A stretch of 46,177 nucleotides of DNA from Alkalibacterium thalassium. GTDB taxonomy: Bacteria; Bacillota; Bacilli; Lactobacillales; Carnobacteriaceae_A. The notes beneath the pieces are model-generated. The model ran no database searches. It saw only the letters and a program-made list of their open reading frames with translations, and was not told the origin of the DNA. The translations under genes and the position numbers were made by a program. Where the stretch lies: NCBI RefSeq assembly GCF_900101165.1, contig NZ_FNFK01000012.1, positions 1-46,177 on the forward strand, read 5' to 3'. Shown here piece by piece: positions 7,136 to 46,177 of the stretch; within the stretch, counting starts at the first letter, position 1, and every line of letters begins with the position of its first letter.

Positions 7136-10120
7136 TCAGTCTTGTGTTTTGAGCGCTTCTACCATATCCACTCTTTTCAGCTTAAAGTGCATGACTAGCA
7201 TGACCAAGCTTGAGAAGAAGAACATCAGCAGAAACGAGTACAGATAACTGGTTAAACTGATCTGTCTTGCGAAACGCATAATGTCGATTTCTGCAGTCTG
7301 CAGAACAAACCGGTGCATGATGAATCCTAGTCCGAAACCAGTAAGGATTCCTAAGACAGTGAGCACCAGATTCTCTCTATAGACATACATCGTCACTTCT
7401 TTATCAAAGAACCCGAGCACTTTAATGGTAGACAGTTCGCGTATCCGTTCAGAAACGTTGATGTTTGTCAGATTGTATAGGACAACAAAGGCCAGTGAAG
7501 CTGCGGAAACGATCAGGACAATGGTCACTACATCCAGACTATCCATCGAATCCTGGAACGCGTCTTCGATCGCGGCGGCGAATGCCACACCTTGAACAGC
7601 ATCTTCAGCTGTCAGCTGCTGTCCCAGCTGATCGTCGTCGACTGCCTCTGTATCATACCTCAATAAGCGTGTATCGTATTCAGCTTCTTCTCCCATGAGT
7701 TCTTCATAGGCTGAAGGTGACAGATAAACATAATGTTGAACGTAGTGTTCAACTATTTCTTCAACTTCGATATCAAACACATCTGAATCATTAGTTTTTA
7801 CAGTAATGATATCTCCGACATCAGCATTCAGCAGGTCGGCCAGTTTGTCAGTGATGATGGCTCCTTCTTCAGGTAAATCAAAGGTAACCGATTCATCATC
7901 CAGATCGCGAAGGTCAACAAACTCTTCCATCCGACCCGGTTCGCTTGGGACAAATAGATTGATATCGTGAGATTCCCCGTCTCTTTCTGCGTAGGCATTA
8001 TCTTGACTGACGTGTAGGTGCCCTTCCAGCCCTTCTAAGGATTCAAGTGTCTCTATATACTCTTCGAGCTGAATTTCACTGGCATCAGTGTTCTCTGAGA
8101 CAATAGCCTGGTACAGATTGATTTCTCCAAACTGTATCTCTCCGATATCTCCAATCGAGTCGGAAAGTCCATACCCAGTAAGAAGCAGTGCAGTTCCACC
8201 AGCCACTCCAAATAAAGTCATGAGCATGCGGCGCTTATATCTGAACAGATTTCTCGACGCAACCTTTTGAGTAAAGGTGAACCGATTCCAGATAAATGGC
8301 ATGTATTCCAAGAAGATCCGTTTCCCTTTTTTAGGTGCTTTTGGCTTCAACAAGGCAGCTGCGTTGCTCCTCAATGATAGACGAACGGATACGAGTGTCG
8401 ATAAACCTGTTGCAATGAGTGCACCTGTAATTGAAATGACGGCGTAACTCCAGTAGAACTGTGTATCTGCGGATGGCAGATTATACATTGAACTGTAGGC
8501 ATCCATTACTACAGTTGGGAAGATCCAGTAACCTAGTAGCAGACCTATAATTCCACCTACAACTGTTGCGATAAAGGCATAAACGAAATACTTCATCGCA
8601 ATAGGAAAGTTTCCATAACCTAAAGCTTTTAGTGTTCCAATCTGATTTCTTCCCTCATCGACCATTCTAGTCATTGTTGTGAGCGATATCAGTGCCGCAA
8701 GCAGGAAGAAGAAGACAGGAAAAATCTGCGCAATTGCTGTGATCCGTTCTGCATTTTCATCAAACTCTTCGTAGCCCTGAAAGGACGTCCGATCCTGTAT
8801 AAAGTATTCCGGCTCTTCCAGATCAGCAAGTTCCTCTTCGGCTTCTGCCAGGTCTGCTTCTGCTTCTGCTATCTCTTCTTCTGCACTCTCCTGTTCTTCT
8901 TCGAACTCGGCAAGCCCCTCTTCATACTCTTCCTGTGCCTCTTCAAGCTCAACGCGGGCATCTTCCAATTCAGCACTCGCTTTCTGAATTTCAGTATCAA
9001 GCTCATTTTCTGCCTGTGCCAGTTCAGCCAGACCCTGCTGGATCTGTTCTTCCTGAGCATTAAGTTCAATGGAGGTCTGTGGATCTTCTATCTGAGCTGC
9101 TTCAAGCTGTTGTCTATTTGATTCCACTTCAGCAAGAGCGGACTGCAGCTGAGCACGCTGATCTTCGATTTCGCTTCTGGCGTCTACTTCTTCCTGCTCC
9201 AGTTCAGCAAGTCCTTCTTCGTAGTCTTCAAGCCCTTCTTCAATTTCAATTCGGGCGTCTTCCAGTTCCTGCTCGGCATTCTCCAGCTCCTGTCGCGCTT
9301 CCTCGATTTCATAATAGCCGTCACTGATTTCTTCTTCGATTTCCTCAACGAGTGCCTCATAGCGTTCGGAAGGACGATCTGCCAGCAATGCTTCGACTTC
9401 TTCTGTGCGCTCATCAATATACTGATTATAGTCTTCTGAATACACCTCATACTCGCGTGCGTTTTCAAAAAGTAAATAGGCATCTGTATGTACTTCCATA
9501 TCAAACACTTCTTCAAGTACCAATGCGAATCCATCCAGAGAACCTGTCCCGACTTGGGTGTTGCCACGTTCCATCCGCTCAATATAGCGAGGATGATTGA
9601 CAAATCCCACTACTTCGAAAGTTGTTTCAGAAAAATTTTCTTCATATTCGTCCGGTGTACCTTCTTCGATCTGAACTGTATCCCCGATTTTATAGTCGCC
9701 CACATAGCTGTTCGTGTTATCCAGTGCAATTTCATTGACCGTCTCCGGCAGTCTTCCTTCCACGACGAAAGGCTGATTGACTTCCTCATAATCATCAGGG
9801 AGGCCCATAATTTTTGATGACTGCCCGGACTTTTCAAACACCACATCCATGCTGTACGTAATTTGAACACGTGTGTCTTCTAGTGTTTCCAGCAGATCGA
9901 TATCCTCATCTTCGAGCCCCATGGTTGAAAACACATGCAGATCGCTGAGCCGCTGGTCATCGAAATACTCATCGGCCGTATGGACCATGACTGGCCCCGT
10001 TGCACTCAAGCCAGCGAAAAAGGCAACGCCCAGCATAATGATGGCGAAAATAGACAGAAAGCGGGTCTTTGTCCGCCAGATTTCTCTTAAAGTGTCTTTC
10101 CAAACCGTTCTATATTTCAT
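7136..10120 (-). CDS. FtsX-like ABC permease with large coiled-coil insertion
   Basis: A 994-residue permease of an efflux or mechanotransmission-type ABC system. TM1 is at about 20-42; a large extracellular region follows; then a FtsX domain (TMs near 463-483, 510-534 and 557-580), a TM near 633-652, a second extracellular domain (about 660-860), and three C-terminal TMs ending ...VDMVEALKTQD. Residues about 250-437 are an extremely E/A-rich coiled coil. A helix-breaking patch near 345-352 suggests a folded-back hairpin stalk. The segment near 285-311 is closely repeated near 384-410 (DYEEGLAELEQ versus EYEEGLAEFEE). The start has GAGGG 6 nt upstream. Its ATPase is encoded just upstream, 30 bp away. 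Substrate unknown. Confidence 0.88.
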   Translation of the reverse strand: MKYRTVWKDTLREIWRTKTRFLSIFAIIMLGVAFFAGLSATGPVMVHTADEYFDDQRLSDLHVFSTMGLEDEDIDLLETLEDTRVQITYSMDVVFEKSGQSSKIMGLPDDYEEVNQPFVVEGRLPETVNEIALDNTNSYVGDYKIGDTVQIEEGTPDEYEENFSETTFEVVGFVNHPRYIERMERGNTQVGTGSLDGFALVLEEVFDMEVHTDAYLLFENAREYEVYSEDYNQYIDERTEEVEALLADRPSERYEALVEEIEEEISDGYYEIEEARQELENAEQELEDARIEIEEGLEDYEEGLAELEQEEVDARSEIEDQRAQLQSALAEVESNRQQLEAAQIEDPQTSIELNAQEEQIQQGLAELAQAENELDTEIQKASAELEDARVELEEAQEEYEEGLAEFEEEQESAEEEIAEAEADLAEAEEELADLEEPEYFIQDRTSFQGYEEFDENAERITAIAQIFPVFFFLLAALISLTTMTRMVDEGRNQIGTLKALGYGNFPIAMKYFVYAFIATVVGGIIGLLLGYWIFPTVVMDAYSSMYNLPSADTQFYWSYAVISITGALIATGLSTLVSVRLSLRSNAAALLKPKAPKKGKRIFLEYMPFIWNRFTFTQKVASRNLFRYKRRMLMTLFGVAGGTALLLTGYGLSDSIGDIGEIQFGEINLYQAIVSENTDASEIQLEEYIETLESLEGLEGHLHVSQDNAYAERDGESHDINLFVPSEPGRMEEFVDLRDLDDESVTFDLPEEGAIITDKLADLLNADVGDIITVKTNDSDVFDIEVEEIVEHYVQHYVYLSPSAYEELMGEEAEYDTRLLRYDTEAVDDDQLGQQLTAEDAVQGVAFAAAIEDAFQDSMDSLDVVTIVLIVSAASLAFVVLYNLTNINVSERIRELSTIKVLGFFDKEVTMYVYRENLVLTVLGILTGFGLGFIMHRFVLQTAEIDIMRFARQISLTSYLYSFLLMFFFSSLVMLVMHFKLKRVDMVEALKTQD

Positions 10121-39979: not shown

Positions 39980-40022
39980 AACGAAAATAGTATAACTTCA
40001 TTAAAGCCATACTATTTTCGTT
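39980..40022. terminator. Perfect hairpin between glgA and glgP
   Basis: AACGAAAATAGTAT pairs perfectly with ATACTATTTTCGTT (14 bp, 15-nt loop). On the minus strand it is followed by TATTTGTAC, a modest U-tract, so it probably stops or attenuates transcription before glgP. Confidence 0.7.
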
Positions 40023-40098
40023 TGTTAATATTTTTCTAATTGACAGAAAATCGACTCTTAAACATGATCGTTCTAATACAGTTCTAAATCAGTTACCA

Positions 40099-41538
40099 TT
40101 AATAAATCAGATAGCGGTACTGATCTAGATACTTTTGAGCCGATTGTTTCCAGCTGTTATCTGTTTCCATTGCTCTGACCTGCAATGTATTAAAACTGTC
40201 AGGTCTATCATAATAAACAGTCAGGGCACGGTCGATCGTGCTCAACATCGTCAGGACATCAAAATCATGGAAACTGAACCCTGTTCCTTCATCTGTCCAC
40301 TCATTATGTGGCTGAATCGTATCCACCAGTCCTCCGGTTTCATGGACGATCGGCAAGGTACCGTATCTAAGTGAGTTCAGCTGAGATAGTCCGCATGGTT
40401 CAAACAGTGATGGCATCAGGAACAGATCTGATCCTGCGTAGATCCACTGGGCCAGTTCACTGTCGAAATCGATAATAGCGCTGAACTTGTCCGGGTAGGT
40501 TTCAGTATAGTATCTGAACGCATCCTCAAAATACGGCTTGCCCGTTCCGACCAACACCATCTGCATATGGCGGTGCTTCATCAGTTCTTCCATGGCATCG
40601 ACGATCAGCTCCACGCCTTTCTGTTCATCCAGACGAGTAACGATTCCTACTAAAGCAACTTCTTTATCTTCCGGAAGACCCACTCTTTTCTGTAGAGCAA
40701 GCTTGCTTTTTACTTTTCCAGACAAATTGTCTTTTGAAAATGTGGCTGGTATGACTGAATCTGTCTGGGGATCATAGGTATCATAGTCGATGCCATTAAC
40801 GATCCCGACAAGCTTGTGCTGAATGTTTCTCAAGTCCCCGTCCAGCCCGTAACCGAACTCGGGTGTCTGAATTTCATTCGCATATGTCGGACTTACTGTG
40901 GTAACCAGATCTGCGTAGTAGATGCCGCCTTTCAGCCAGCACGCATTGTCACCGTACTTCAGTCCTCTCTCGTGAAAAGCAGCATATCCAATATCAAAAT
41001 GATCGGACAGTACATACTGATCATAGACACCCTGAAACAGAATATTATGAATCGTCAGGACAGTTTTTATATCTTTTAATGTATTGATCCAGCTGTACTT
41101 ATCTTTAAGCAGCACAGGCATCATCGCAGTCTGCCAGTCATTCACATGAAGGATATCCGGAATGAAGCCTATCTGTTCGAGCATTTCAATGGCCGCCTGC
41201 TGGAAAAATGCAAACCGTTCACTATCGTCTCCATAGTCATACAGATTTTCCCTGTCAAAATAAAAGAGATTATCTATAAAGTAATAGGTCACCTTATCTC
41301 TGACCAGCTGCTTGATGCCACAATGCTGGTTTCTCCACCCTACCTTGACGATAAATGAGCAGATATCTTCCAGTTCCTCATTAGTCTCATCATCCAGTTT
41401 CTGAACGAAATAAGGAAGAACGACGCGGACATCGTTCCCTTCTTTCGCCAGTTCCTTTGGAAGAGAGCCCATGACGTCTCCTAGTCCGCCAGTTTTAAAG
41501 AAAGGGGCACACTCTGAAGCAGCAAATAGTAGTTTCAT
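40099..41538 (-). CDS. glgA: Glycogen synthase
   Basis: A GT5 enzyme (about 479 residues) elongating glycogen from ADP-glucose. The ADP-glucose loop KTGGLGDVMGSL is at about 15-26; the GT-B C-terminal half has VGIVTRLDEQKGVELI and the acceptor-side EPCGLSQLNSLRYGTLPIV. I chose ATG at 41538 (MKLLFAASE); a GTG at 41550 overlaps the glgD stop as GTGA and is also possible. Cotranscribed with glgBCD. Confidence 0.95.
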   Translation of the reverse strand: MKLLFAASECAPFFKTGGLGDVMGSLPKELAKEGNDVRVVLPYFVQKLDDETNEELEDICSFIVKVGWRNQHCGIKQLVRDKVTYYFIDNLFYFDRENLYDYGDDSERFAFFQQAAIEMLEQIGFIPDILHVNDWQTAMMPVLLKDKYSWINTLKDIKTVLTIHNILFQGVYDQYVLSDHFDIGYAAFHERGLKYGDNACWLKGGIYYADLVTTVSPTYANEIQTPEFGYGLDGDLRNIQHKLVGIVNGIDYDTYDPQTDSVIPATFSKDNLSGKVKSKLALQKRVGLPEDKEVALVGIVTRLDEQKGVELIVDAMEELMKHRHMQMVLVGTGKPYFEDAFRYYTETYPDKFSAIIDFDSELAQWIYAGSDLFLMPSLFEPCGLSQLNSLRYGTLPIVHETGGLVDTIQPHNEWTDEGTGFSFHDFDVLTMLSTIDRALTVYYDRPDSFNTLQVRAMETDNSWKQSAQKYLDQYRYLIY

Positions 41539-41546
41539 TGTCTTAC

Positions 41547-42716
41547 TCACTCCTCCTTGACCTCTCCTTCTGCATAAATCACGCCGTCTTTGGCGATAAC
41601 TATAGGATTCTCGGCTGTCCCTTCCAGACGGACGCCTTTTTTCACATAAACATGCTTATCCAGAATGACGTGTTTTAAGTAGGCCCCTTCTTCAATACAG
41701 GAATCCTGCATGATTATTGAGTCTTCAATATGTGCATTTTCAGCTATCTTCACTTTACGGAAAATCAGCGAATCCTTAACTGTACCATAGACTTCGCAGT
41801 CATTAGCAAACTGTGCATTTTCTATCATTGCAGTTTGTCCATAATAAGTTGGTGCCGAATTCTTAGACCGTGTTCTGACTGGGTCAGCACGATAGAAGAG
41901 AGAATTGAAGTTGTCCTCATGAAGCATATCCATATTGGCATCATAATAACTCTTGATGTCTTCGACGACTTTAAGGTAACCAGCATACTCGTAGCCATAC
42001 ACAGAACAACCTGAATCTAAACTGAACTGGATGAAATTGTTCACATTAATATCCAGTTCCGCCAGTTTTGCTCTGTACAGGTAATCAAGGAAAGTCTTCT
42101 TGCTTAAGATCATTGTTTCCATATTTAAGTTGAAGCGGTCTTCCTTAACATCGGATATAGCTGTAACACCACTAATGTCGCAGCCTTCTTCATCGCCTAG
42201 ATCAAGTGCAGAATAGACCGTGTCACTACTCAGTTCGTCTCTGTTCACTTTCTTGTAGACAACTGTGACCTGGCTGTCTTTATCTTCATGGTAATGCATG
42301 AGCGATTCGATCTGAATATTCGAAAGGAAGGCTGAACCCATCATAACGACATAGTCTGCTTTGGCACGAGTGACGTAATTATAGTGATCTTCATAATAGA
42401 AGCGGTCGTGTTTTGATTCCGTGCTTCGGTCAGCTTTCAGTTTTACTTGAGAATGTGTAAATACTCCCCCACCGGCTAGAGAATCCAGTCCCCATGTCGA
42501 TCCGGAACGGATATGATCATATAAGGAGTGGCCTGAACCGGAAATGAATAAGGCAGCAGATTCTGCTTCGGCATTATATAAGCTGGAAAACGGAAAATCG
42601 ACTAAGCGGTACCGGCATGCGAAAGGCAGTGAGGCAACCGGTCTTCTATTAGTCAGTGGTTTCAGCTTATCTTCATACTCTACTAAATTCAGTATAGGTG
42701 CGATTCTATTTCTCAT
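41547..42716 (-). CDS. glgD: Glucose-1-phosphate adenylyltransferase regulatory subunit
   Basis: A 389-residue paralogue of GlgC found in Firmicutes. It has a nucleotidyltransferase fold and a left-handed beta-helix, but the N-terminal nucleotide loop GGxGxRL of GlgC is replaced ([13 protein letters not shown]), so it is probably poorly catalytic and tunes GlgC in a GlgCD complex. Its start overlaps the glgC end by 11 nt, with AGGAGGG 7 nt upstream inside glgC. It overlaps the alternative glgA GTG start at its own stop. Confidence 0.94.
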
Positions 42717-43851
42717 CGGAATACCCTCCTATTTCTTCTCCGTATCCAGCAACGGCAATGTCGTCTTCAGTCCCGATTAGCTCGGCATCATCAAATATAT
42801 GTGCGCCTTCACCAACAATCGCTTTTTCGATTCTGACATTCTCTCCAATCACTGCATTCGGCATGATAAAAGAATCAGTGATAACTGAGTTTTTTCCAAC
42901 CTTAACATTATGCGACAGAATGGAATGATTGATTTCGCCTGCCACATAGCACCCGTCAGTGATCATGGAATCCTTGACTTTTGCGGAGGATGTCAGAAAC
43001 TGTGGTGTCGTATTCGGACTCTTGGAGTAGACTCTCCAGTCGCGATTTCGGATATTAAGGTCGTGTTCAGGGTCCAGGAACTCCATATTGGCGCTCCACA
43101 AGCTTTCAAGTGTCCCAACATCTTTCCAGTATCCTTCAAACGAGTAAGCATAGATGGCTTCACTGTTTCTAAGATACGCCGGAATCACGTGGTGCCCGAA
43201 GTCTTCCATCTGTCTATTTTTAGACTGATTATCAACAAGGTACTGTTTCAGACGTGGCCAGCTGAAGATGTAGATCCCCATAGATGCCAGGTTTGATTTT
43301 GGATTATCCGGTTTCTCCTGGAACTCGATGATTCGATCTGTTCGGTCTGTAGCCATAACACCGAATCGTGAGGCATCTTCCCAAGGTACAGGCATGACCC
43401 CTACTGTAAGAGAAGCAGCCTGCTGCTTGTGGTAATCGAGCATTTTCTCATAGTCCATCTTATAGATGTGGTCTCCTGATAGGATTACAACATAATCGGG
43501 ATTTTTCTGATCGATAAAGTCCATATTCTGAAAGACAGCATGTGCTGTTCCTTTAAAGAATTTCTCTCCATCGACGCTTGAATACGGCTGAAGGATGGTG
43601 GCTCCTCCGTTATGTCTGTTAAGACCCCAGCTCGATCCATTTCCTACATGATCATTCAGGACAAGCGGCTGGTACTGCGTCACCACTCCTACATCATTGA
43701 TCCCTGAGTTTGCACAGTTTGATAAGGCAAAGTCGATGATGCGGTAGTTTCCGCCGAAAGGTACAGCGGGCTTGGCGATCTGCTTGGTCAGTTTACCTAG
43801 GCGCGATCCCTGTCCACCAGCTAAGATCATTGCAACTGTTTCAGTTTTCAT
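42706..43851 (-). CDS. glgC: Glucose-1-phosphate adenylyltransferase catalytic subunit
   Basis: Makes ADP-glucose from ATP and glucose-1-phosphate, the committed step of glycogen synthesis. It is 381 residues: a nucleotidyltransferase domain with [13 protein letters not shown] near 10-22, [15 protein letters not shown] and [12 protein letters not shown], then a beta-helix C-terminus. The only usable start is ATG at 43851, yet no Shine-Dalgarno lies directly before it; AAGGAGG is about 31 nt away with a stable hairpin between (see separate entry). It overlaps glgD. Confidence 0.95.
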
Positions 43852-43889
43852 ATTGTTCGGAAGTGTCAGAAGACCTTCCTTCCCTCCTT
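43852..43889 (-). promoter_or_regulatory. glgC: Shine-Dalgarno - hairpin - start arrangement of glgC
   Basis: On the minus strand AAGGAGG (43889-43883), 3 nt, then GGAAGGTC-TTCT-GAC(A)CTTCC (8 bp with one bulged A; 43879-43859), then 7 nt to the ATG. Linear spacing is ~31 nt, far too long; if the hairpin forms, effective spacing is ~10 nt. Translation of glgC may depend on this fold. Confidence 0.65.
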
Positions 43890-43909
43890 AAGGTAATGTA
43901 ATTGTGTAC

Positions 43910-45829
43910 TTATTTAGTTATTTTATTTACCCCATATACTCTCTTAGGTTTGAAAACGACAATACTTAATGCAGGGAGGATAAATTCCAGTGCGTGTGGT
44001 TGTCCATGCACTTCAGCCTCCAGTGTACGCTTGACCCCTTGAGGCTCTGTCCATGTGCCGCCTAAGTCTGCCCATTCTGTATTCCATACTTCTTCATATT
44101 GTCCTTTATAAGGAACCCCTATACGGACATTCTGTCTTTCCACTGGAACAAAATTACACATGATAATAAGAAAGTCTCTTGGATTTTTACCTTGCCGGAT
44201 GAAATAAAGCACAGATTCCGCTTTATTATCGGCATCAAGTATCTGGATGCCTTCAGAAGAATGATCAAGTTCCCACAATGCCCGGTGTTCCTGATAGAAC
44301 GCGTTCAGTTGTCTTGTGAACTCTAAATGGCGGGCATTCATATCATCATTCAGGCTGTCCCATTCCAATCCCTGATCAAACCTCCACTCGAGGAACTGTC
44401 CGAACTCCGCTCCCATGAACTGCAGCTTTTTACCCGGATGAACCATGCGATATGTTTCGATCGTTCTTAACCCCGCAAACTGATTGTAGCGGTCTCCGTG
44501 CATTTTATGCATCATAGATTTTTTCCCGTGTACCACTTCGTCGTGAGAAAAAGGAAGGATGAAGTTTTCATTAAAGGTGTACATAAAAGAGAATGTAATC
44601 AGATTAAAGTGGTCTTTTCTGTGTATTGGATCCATTTCAAAGAACTTGAGGGTGTCATTCATCCACCCCATATTCCATTTATAGTTAAAACCCAGTCCGC
44701 CTTCGTGAACCGGATGAGTAACTTTGTTCCAGGCTGTACTTTCTTCAGCCATCATCAGCACATCTGGATGACGTTCAAAGACTTTTTTGTTGAGCAGTTG
44801 AAGGAATTCGACACCTTCTTTGTTTACATTGGTCCCTTCATCGTTAGGTATCCAATCACCCAAGTCATAGTCCAGATAAAGCATATTGCTGACGGCATCC
44901 ACTCTCAGCCCATCCAGATGAAACTGTTCGATCCAGAAAAGCGCGTTGGAAATGAGAAAGCTTCTGACCTGACTTTTTCCGATATCAAAATTAAGCGTCC
45001 CCCATCTGTTATTGTCTGCACGATTCTGATCAGCATACTCAAATTGAGGTGTGCCGTCATAATAGGCCATGCCATAAGCATTGCGGTTAAAGTGTCCAGG
45101 TACCCAGTCCATCAGCACACCGAGGTTTGCCTGATGAGCTGCTTCAACGAAATCCTGAAACTCTTCCATCGTTCCGAATTTCGAAGAGAGACCAAAAAAG
45201 CCAGTAGCCTGATAACCCCAGCTTGCATCAAGAGGATGTTCCATTAATGGCATGAATTCTATATGTGTATAACCCATTTCCTTAACGTATGGAATGAGTT
45301 CATCCTGAAGTTCTCTTATCGTATACCACGATCCATCTTCATGATGTTTCCATGAACTCAGATGTACTTCGTATATGTTAAGAGGTCGACTGTAAATCTC
45401 TCGACGTCTACGATTAGCAAGCCATAATCCGTCTTTCCACTGTCTGTCTGGAAGTCCTTTTACCACAGAAGCATCTTTGGGTCTAACTTCAAAAGCCAGG
45501 GCATACGGGTCGATTTTGTAGACCGTCGTGCCGTCAGCCTGAACAATTTTGTACTTGTAATGATGTCCTTCTTGTGCTTTTGGCATATCAAGATAGAAAA
45601 CGCCCGTTTCTCCTATTTTTTCCATCTCATCCAGTTCTGCCCAGTCATTGAAATCTCCAACAAGATAAACGGTTTGAGCATTCGGAGCCCATACATTGAA
45701 GCGGAAGCCTTCAGCCTGGGCACTACAGCCCATCGTCAGATAGCTGTCAAAAAGTGTACCCTCGTTAAAGAGATAAAAAGTATCCGTCAGTTCTTTATGT
45801 GCTTCAGCTCTATTTCCTTGTTCCCCCAT
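43910..45829 (-). CDS. glgB: 1,4-alpha-glucan branching enzyme
   Basis: A GH13 enzyme of 639 residues that makes alpha-1,6 branches in glycogen. Order: CBM48 (about 38-130, RFNVWAPNAQTVYLVGDFNDW), catalytic barrel, C-terminal beta-domain. Nucleophile Asp near 311 (DGLRVDAVSNMLY), acid Glu near 362 (MMAEEST), and the third acid in FSHDEVVHG. The N-terminal duplicate CBM of longer GlgB forms is absent, as usual in Firmicutes. I chose ATG at 45829, with AAGGGGG 6 nt upstream; the ATG at 45835 abuts that site. First gene of glgBCDAP. Confidence 0.95.
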   Translation of the reverse strand: MGEQGNRAEAHKELTDTFYLFNEGTLFDSYLTMGCSAQAEGFRFNVWAPNAQTVYLVGDFNDWAELDEMEKIGETGVFYLDMPKAQEGHHYKYKIVQADGTTVYKIDPYALAFEVRPKDASVVKGLPDRQWKDGLWLANRRRREIYSRPLNIYEVHLSSWKHHEDGSWYTIRELQDELIPYVKEMGYTHIEFMPLMEHPLDASWGYQATGFFGLSSKFGTMEEFQDFVEAAHQANLGVLMDWVPGHFNRNAYGMAYYDGTPQFEYADQNRADNNRWGTLNFDIGKSQVRSFLISNALFWIEQFHLDGLRVDAVSNMLYLDYDLGDWIPNDEGTNVNKEGVEFLQLLNKKVFERHPDVLMMAEESTAWNKVTHPVHEGGLGFNYKWNMGWMNDTLKFFEMDPIHRKDHFNLITFSFMYTFNENFILPFSHDEVVHGKKSMMHKMHGDRYNQFAGLRTIETYRMVHPGKKLQFMGAEFGQFLEWRFDQGLEWDSLNDDMNARHLEFTRQLNAFYQEHRALWELDHSSEGIQILDADNKAESVLYFIRQGKNPRDFLIIMCNFVPVERQNVRIGVPYKGQYEEVWNTEWADLGGTWTEPQGVKRTLEAEVHGQPHALEFILPALSIVVFKPKRVYGVNKITK

Positions 45830-45920
45830 AGACATCCCCCTTTTTCGTTATACGTTACTGTCAAATTTTTTTGTTCTTAAAGGTCTATAACCGTTGTTCT
45901 ATCAAGGAAAAGACAAAAAA

Positions 45921-46001
45921 CACTTGCCCCTCCCTCATTTATCGGTAAAATAGTAGGTATCCGACTACCAAACTATCCCCAGAAAGAAGGAAGAGCAAGT
46001 G
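45921..46001. repeat. Inverted repeat upstream of the edge ORF
   Basis: CACTTGC (45921-45927), extended imperfectly by CCCTCC, pairs with GGAAGAGCAAGTG (ending at 46001). The right arm contains part of the ribosome binding site and the GTG start of the edge ORF. On the minus strand the left arm runs into TTTTTTG, so it could also terminate transcripts entering the glycogen operon. Confidence 0.55.
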
Positions 46002-46177
46002 CTGTATACCCCTATTATAAACTGTCAGTTTGAAATTATCTACTATTGCCTGAAAGAAAATATCAGACAACAGGAAATGCTTGAAAAATATCGTGAATTG
46101 ACCCGTTCTCTTATCGAAGAACGTAATCGTTGGACAACGCACTCCCGTGCTCCGACCGTATCTAAACCACTTGACCA
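45999..46177 (+). CDS. 5' end of an unidentified CDS, possibly a mobile-element gene
   Basis: A plus-strand frame starts with GTG at 45999, with AAGGA 7 nt upstream, and is open for 59 codons to the window edge. The protein begins VLYTPIINCQFEIIYYC and then has a charged helical region (ENIRQQEMLEKYRELTRSL, EERNRW). I do not recognise the family. The inverted repeat that would hide its start codon is a layout common at the left end of insertion sequences, which is why I suspect a transposase; this is weak. The opposite-strand frame here looks like a shadow. Confidence 0.45.
   Translation, partial: MLYTPIINCQFEIIYYCLKENIRQQEMLEKYRELTRSLIEERNRWTTHSRAPTVSKPLD

Follow-up and report, generated by a model that had tools for sequence, protein, structure and literature searches.

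The window, meaning the whole stretch of 46,177 nucleotides from Alkalibacterium thalassium that was analysed, carries four glg genes on its minus strand in the order glgB, glgC, glgD and glgA, all identified by NCBIfam models over cut-off. GlgC of the window is 99% identical to GlgC of locus L031, and the source is close to A. pelagium. The stop codon of glgB and the ATG of glgC lie 58 nt apart, and it is in this interval that the element studied here is found. The features are as follows:

43910..45835, minus strand: glgB, branching enzyme, the gene upstream of glgC
43883..43889, minus strand: Shine-Dalgarno (SD) sequence AAGGAGG of glgC, 31 nt from the ATG, −9.5 kcal/mol
43880..43882, minus strand: 5′ linker GAA, between SD and hairpin
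43872..43879, minus strand: 5′ arm GGAAGGTC of the bridging hairpin, from RNA folding
43868..43871, minus strand: loop TTCT of the bridging hairpin, from RNA folding
43859..43867, minus strand: 3′ arm GACACTTCC of the bridging hairpin with one bulged A, from RNA folding
43852..43858, minus strand: 3′ linker GAACAAT, between hairpin and ATG
43851..43849, minus strand: ATG of glgC
42706..43851, minus strand: glgC, glucose-1-phosphate adenylyltransferase, ATG start (NCBIfam TIGR02091 and NF003670)
41547..42716, minus strand: glgD, overlapping the end of glgC, with an ordinary SD at 8 nt
40099..41550, minus strand: glgA, overlapping the end of glgD

As RNA, the glgC leader reads AAGGAGG-GAA-(GGAAGGUC UUCU GACACUUCC)-GAACAAU-AUG. 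An initial annotation of this DNA had placed an AAGGAGG about 31 nt upstream of the glgC ATG, and the coordinates confirm a linear spacing of 31 nt. This SD is the strongest ungapped pairing found within 80 nt of glgC with the 3′ end of 16S rRNA, which we take to be GAUCACCUCCUUUCU. The best SD located 4–13 nt from any candidate start of glgC reaches only −3.3, compared to −9.5 at 31 nt. The 8-bp stem with a TTCT loop, proposed to cut the spacing to about 10 nt, folds as claimed: the 38-nt leader gave a one-bulge hairpin of 8 bp with a UUCU loop (−10.7 kcal/mol), and the effective spacing is 10 nt, made up of 3 nt ahead of the stem and 7 nt behind it.

The same annotation had described the SDs of all neighbouring genes as normally spaced, which is roughly right. 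It holds for glgD, whereas the starts of glgB and glgA are ambiguous, because in-frame ATGs lie 6 and 12 nt, respectively, beyond the listed starts, and strong SDs adjoin the first listed starts themselves (0 nt for glgB and 1 nt for glgA). The glgB SD AAAGGGGG adjoins the first listed ATG (45823-45835, minus strand), and the in-frame ATG 6 nt further on is the likelier start. The listed GTG of glgA lies 1 nt from an AAGGAGG (41536-41550, minus strand), and the ATG 12 nt further on may be the start. By script, an SD of −4.0 kcal/mol or better was found at 4–13 nt for 25 of the 33 window genes.

Taken singly, the fold of the window's glgC leader is unremarkable and does not prove anything, because 16 of 200 shuffles of the 38 nt were equally stable (z = −1.67). 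The same number, 16 of 200, was obtained for the 71-nt context (z = −1.38), and the spacer alone gave z = −3.1 against its shuffles. The convincing evidence is comparative.

The order to which the window belongs, presumably Lactobacillales, was sampled with 295 genomes, and a GlgC match was found in 173 of them. From the matches listed, 130 leaders were taken; the 43 genomes left out include five of genus g37 (probably Listeria) and two in which the gene contains a stop. When named loci were inspected by eye, differing hairpin sequences were seen at the same place in ten genera, namely Alkalibacterium, Marinilactibacillus, Lacticigenium, Atopostipes, Trichococcus, Tetragenococcus, Enterococcus, Vagococcus, Jeotgalibaca and Listeria. 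In 110 of the 130 leaders, the strongest pairing with the 16S 3′ end was located at least 15 nt from the ATG (mean 31.8 nt). The spacers of these 110 leaders folded with a mean z of −3.1, and for 95 of them at most 5 of 100 shuffles were equally stable. The glgC SDs are also strong, with a median of −10.8 compared to −7.1 for genes of the window and two relatives at their best ordinary SD.

By one mechanical rule for the order SD, hairpin, ATG, 102 of the 130 leaders, from 36 of 42 genera, were bridged, 23 were ordinary and 5 were neither. Three leaders counted as canonical (G086, G030 and G281) and three counted as other (G084, G106 and G121) appear bridged by eye. Conservation of the stem, on which the initial annotation had staked its reading, is borne out in most of the relatives examined. 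Bridged leaders made up 23 of 23 in family f1, 14 of 14 in f2, 28 of 30 in f3, 24 of 30 in f5, 4 of 4 in f7, 7 of 8 in f8, 2 of 8 in f9 and none of 13 in f4. Identical leaders indicate that f3 includes Enterococcus italicus, f5 Trichococcus, f7 Listeria and f8 Vagococcus, while f4 and f9 are probably Streptococcaceae and Lactobacillaceae. The bridge is dispensable, since f4 and six of the eight f9 leaders use ordinary SDs.

For the statistics on spacing and pairing, 10 of the 110 leaders were dropped by hand, as they had no convincing hairpin or their strongest SD lay inside the hairpin. In the remaining 100, the hairpin measures 12–54 nt and the linear spacing 21–62 nt, yet the effective spacing is 10.1 ± 1.9 nt, with a 3′ linker of 7.4 nt on average. 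Linear spacing follows hairpin length as 1.02 × hairpin + 9.75 (r = 0.97), and with one value per genus (34 genera) the slope is again 1.02 (r = 0.98). The mean effective spacing is uninformative, because shuffled spacers also average 10.7 nt. The spread, on the other hand, is informative: the standard deviation is 1.98 for the 92 distinct spacers, compared to a mean of 7.82 and a minimum of 6.10 in 200 shuffled sets. A combined criterion held for 88 of the 92 real spacers, and for a mean of 6.2 and a maximum of 12 in the shuffled sets.

Arms pair far better with their own partner than with a foreign one. In an arm swap with one leader per genus (34), own arms gave −10.5 kcal/mol and swapped arms −5.2 kcal/mol, and none of 2000 permutations was as good. 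With nothing dropped (102 distinct spacers from the 110 leaders) the values were −9.7 and −5.1 kcal/mol (0/2000). With one leader per family, a comparison of six rows that has little power, 6 of 2000 permutations equalled the own value and none was better. Across the 34 genera, the pair types per stem level, read from the folds, comprised GC, AU, UA, CG and GU. In 12 Alkalibacterium leaders, however, the predicted stem is nearly constant and variation is almost only seen in loops and flanks; the covariation therefore comes from between genera. The compensatory changes that had been proposed as a check are present in part: rewritten arms still pair between genera, but the stem hardly varies inside Alkalibacterium. 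In the predicted structures, the stem sequence differs between families while the pairing and the spanned distance stay fixed.

We also folded the 100 leaders in context, from 80 nt upstream to 30 nt inside the coding sequence. The median probability of the bridging pair was 0.99, and the mean unpaired fractions of the SD core and the AUG were 0.63 and 0.62, respectively. Competing folds exist, because the SD core and AUG are partly paired and the bridging pair exceeded 0.8 in only 82 of the 100 leaders.

To place glgC among other genes, a baseline was taken from the window and genomes G019 and G036 (33 + 300 + 303 genes), in which the mean ordinary SD spacing is 7.0–7.4 nt. Scans of the baseline with loose criteria gave mostly apparent false starts. 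In a stricter scan of 37 + 735 + 689 ORFs, in which the three glgC genes were deliberately included, the ATG starts returned were those of glgC, pepA, murG and one doubtful ORF. The matches to pepA (glutamyl aminopeptidase) and murG, named after NCBIfam, are both in G019; pepA of G036, which was deliberately included in the scan, was not flagged as bridged. Six TTG starts were taken for chance, two of them lying inside tRNA-like sequence. The doubtful ORF (L363 of G036, minus strand, start near 8823, 797 aa from the first start) has a leader with AGGGGG, a 5-bp UGGCA/UGCCA hairpin and an ATG, and is possibly a further bridged gene.

By a similar rule, pepA was bridged in 18 of the 29 loci located among the best 30 of 55 matching genomes (L301–L330), and murG in 20 of 30 loci, the best 30 of 41 matching genomes (L371–L400). 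The arm swap gave own values of −9.3 compared to −3.9 kcal/mol for pepA (0/2000; 24 distinct spacers from 30 loci, two with a wrongly chosen SD) and −7.2 compared to −4.9 kcal/mol for murG (0/2000; 23 preselected loci of 30, with the 7 lacking a bridge left out). In the window's own genome, murG (L376) is bridged by the rule, and pepA (L321) is bridged by eye; the automatic choice missed the latter, and its fold adds outer pairs. The layout is thus not peculiar to glycogen synthesis, because pepA and murG share it. The order SD, hairpin, ATG looks like a rare but recurrent class, which, extrapolated from two clear matches in about 1,458 non-glgC ORFs, perhaps amounts to a few genes per genome.

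The layout varies at these two genes as well. Five Alkalibacterium loci of pepA (L307, L310, L312, L313 and L318) have no bridge, and three of them have a clear ordinary SD. Many Alkalibacterium loci of murG have short GCAC/GUGC stems, and two murG loci of f8, the Vagococcus family (L396 and L397), do not have the layout.

All 45 outgroup glgC loci (L066–L110), from relatives of Paenibacillus, Exiguobacterium, Bacillus, Clostridium and others, have an ordinary SD, defined as −4.5 kcal/mol or better at 3–14 nt from an in-frame start within eight codons. A GlgC protein tree of 72 rows was rooted at midpoint and included 13 of the 45 outgroup loci; rows L031–L064 were labelled bridged by eye and L289, which is without an ORF, was omitted. 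The bridged rows fall in one clade of 59 rows (support 100/100), which also contains 12 ordinary rows (6 of f4, 5 of f9 and 1 of f5) and 2 unclear ones. On this tree the bridged label changes 6 times, compared to 22 times when shuffled. A single gain at the base of the clade followed by several losses is an interpretation that would fit this pattern.

Coupling to glgB as the reason for the bridge was dropped, because the distance to the upstream frame varies and pepA and murG have the layout without glgB. In bridged leaders, the upstream frame, picked by script and not glgB in every case, ranges from an overlap with glgC to more than 100 nt away. Bridged leaders usually have a gap to this script-chosen frame, with exceptions. 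Among 20 unbridged leaders with an ordinary SD (from f4, f9 and genus g39 of f5), 10 overlap the upstream frame and 15 lie within 25 nt of it.

We interpret the glgC element as a hairpin-bridged, or accommodated, ribosome binding site, with a probability of roughly 85%. A stably folded hairpin most likely brings SD and start codon together. It would remain folded on the mRNA, presumably held to one side, while the 30S subunit would pair with the SD beyond it. The chain actually spanned, about 10 nt (3 before and 7 after the stem), would then place the ATG in the P site. Compared to the ordinary spacing of 7 nt, the excess of about 3 nt would fit the width of the helix base that the chain must cross. 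Stem sequence, stem length and loop would be free, provided that the arms can pair and the flanks are kept short, and unfolding would be expected to lower initiation. The bridge probably acts constitutively. Since glgD and glgA each overlap the preceding gene, the bridge may determine entry into the glgC-D-A block, whose expression would then depend on it. The core of the initial annotation, a hairpin that shortens the distance from SD to ATG as in phage T4 gene 38, is strongly supported by the rewritten stems and the constant effective spacing.

How such a bridge came to be kept can be read in more than one way. In a first version of the bridged-site reading, a constructive-neutral ratchet, an inserted hairpin was once tolerated and its arms were then kept paired. 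The unpaired spacer would be too long, so that bridging is needed but brings neither benefit nor regulation. The freedom of length, sequence and loop next to fixed pairing and flank lengths, the absence of the bridge in ordinary-SD lineages and the differing loops of close relatives are all in line with this. The bridge was nevertheless kept through much of the order although an ordinary SD seems easily evolved, the SDs are unusually strong, and three unrelated genes have the same layout. We consider the ratchet a serious possibility that falls somewhat short of even odds.

In a second version, which we consider rather unlikely, the bridge is regulated: a factor or condition would open, mask or cut the hairpin, leaving the SD too far away and switching glgC off, with a helicase, an RNA-binding protein, a small RNA or RNase III as candidates. 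Such a switch between folded and unfolded states is mechanically possible, it would be placed on the committed step of glycogen synthesis, and the layout is present in 36 of the 42 genera sampled. However, families differ in both stem and loop sequence, which leaves no constant motif to be recognised, and nothing in their physiology obviously links pepA and murG, which also have the layout. The initial annotation had suggested sensitivity to temperature, to a helicase or to an RNA-binding protein. A simple temperature switch is unlikely, because the closing stems of all eight leaders tried are predicted to stay closed at 55 °C (pairing 0.94–1.00); an RNA thermometer melting within the physiological range was rejected on the same prediction. 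Elsewhere, CsrA is a known regulator of glgC. Among the 295 genomes, none had CsrA over the cut-off of Pfam PF02599 and one had a weak match below it, while the same model was positive in 3 of 14 control genomes. CsrA was thus rejected as the regulator of glgC here, and control by an RNA-binding protein found no support. Rfam covariance models gave no match at E ≤ 1 in window positions 40000-46177.

It seems improbable that bridged sites form a standing class in this order, present at least on glgC, pepA and murG, and are kept for a shared translational behaviour beyond the reach of an ordinary SD, such as responding selectively to a factor bound to the ribosome, to a helicase or to the ribosome concentration. 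It is very unlikely that the hairpin is an element of mRNA stability or processing, such as the 5′ hairpin of a processed glgC-D-A segment, rather than a translation device. Its intercistronic position after glgB in the window would suit such a role, but this leaves its placement between SD and ATG and the constant remainder of about 10 nt unexplained. A different start codon close to the SD, with the hairpin as coding sequence, was rejected and has only a slim chance of being correct. An in-frame CTG does lie inside the window's spacer, and 4–13 nt after the SD there is an in-frame ATG, GTG or TTG in 7 of 100 leaders and an in-frame CTG in 3 (an ATG, GTG or TTG in any frame occurs there in 40). 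Yet 93 of the 100 have no standard in-frame start at this place, the spacer lengths fall in all three modulo 3 classes (38/34/28), and in 54 a stop in the glgC frame lies between SD and ATG. Chance folding of a purine-rich SD region, which the single-leader values would allow (z between −1.4 and −1.7; 16 of 200 shuffles equally stable), is refuted by the arm-swap and shuffle-set tests over many genera, barring an error in these.

If the bridged-site reading is true, these leaders are natural evidence that the initiating 30S subunit routinely accepts a folded stem of up to about 54 nt between SD and AUG. The natural series, with hairpins of 12–54 nt at an effective spacing of about 10 nt, would provide a ready test of how the ribosome measures the distance from SD to AUG. 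Working SD distances differ between species, since one study gives the ordinary SD spacing in Staphylococcus aureus as 2–3 nt longer than in E. coli (PMC13009471); its main text does not contain the terms hairpin or stem-loop. Gene-start predictors restricted to an SD no more than about 15 nt away may overlook or misplace starts of this kind. One start-site prediction study describes 58 mispredicted E. coli genes that were folded and gave no convincing folding-rescued ribosome binding site (PMC1805508). In a full-text search of open-licence papers, we found no report of the order SD, hairpin, ATG in bacterial glgC, and the experimentally supported cases of this exact layout were two T4 phage genes only. 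Here it appears to be conserved on a metabolic gene of the chromosome across much of an order, and it recurs in two further genes.

RNA thermometers and SD riboswitches likewise have a leader hairpin near the SD. In contrast to these, the glgC SD lies outside the hairpin, the stems of the eight leaders tried are predicted to stay closed at 55 °C, and window positions 40000-46177 gave no Rfam match. In E. coli, CsrA controls glgC post-transcriptionally through a GGA-rich leader. The gene, the post-transcriptional level and the GGA-rich leader are the same here, but the 295 genomes contain no CsrA over cut-off and one weak match below. In E. coli thrS, the hairpin that splits the binding site lies upstream of the start region, and there is autoregulation, whereas the glgC hairpin lies between SD and ATG. 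For thrS, the ribosome is reported to hold a long hairpin that stays folded (PMC3936740).

The closest likeness is to T4 genes 25 and 38, where, as proposed for glgC, a structure shortens an extended SD-AUG spacing. The intervening structure brings the distance from 22 to 5 nt in gene 38 and from 27 to 11 nt in gene 25; it raises initiation, and destabilising it lowers initiation. The gene 25 structure is reported to be kept in close T-even phages and absent from more distant T4 relatives (PMC3014915). The accommodated, or split, site of gene 25, at the gene 26-25 junction, is intercistronic like that of glgC in the window. Unlike the phage cases, the sites described here lie on the chromosome, in genes of metabolism and the cell wall, across much of a bacterial order; they have rewritten stems and hairpins of 12–54 nt and are predicted from sequence. 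The window's glgC has a strong distant SD with none better at normal distance, and a hairpin between SD and AUG that leaves both outside at a workable effective spacing; across relatives, the structure is conserved (102 of 130 leaders; arm swap 0/2000). These are the features of the T4 type that a sequence can reveal, and they indicate that the glgC site would work like that of T4 gene 25.
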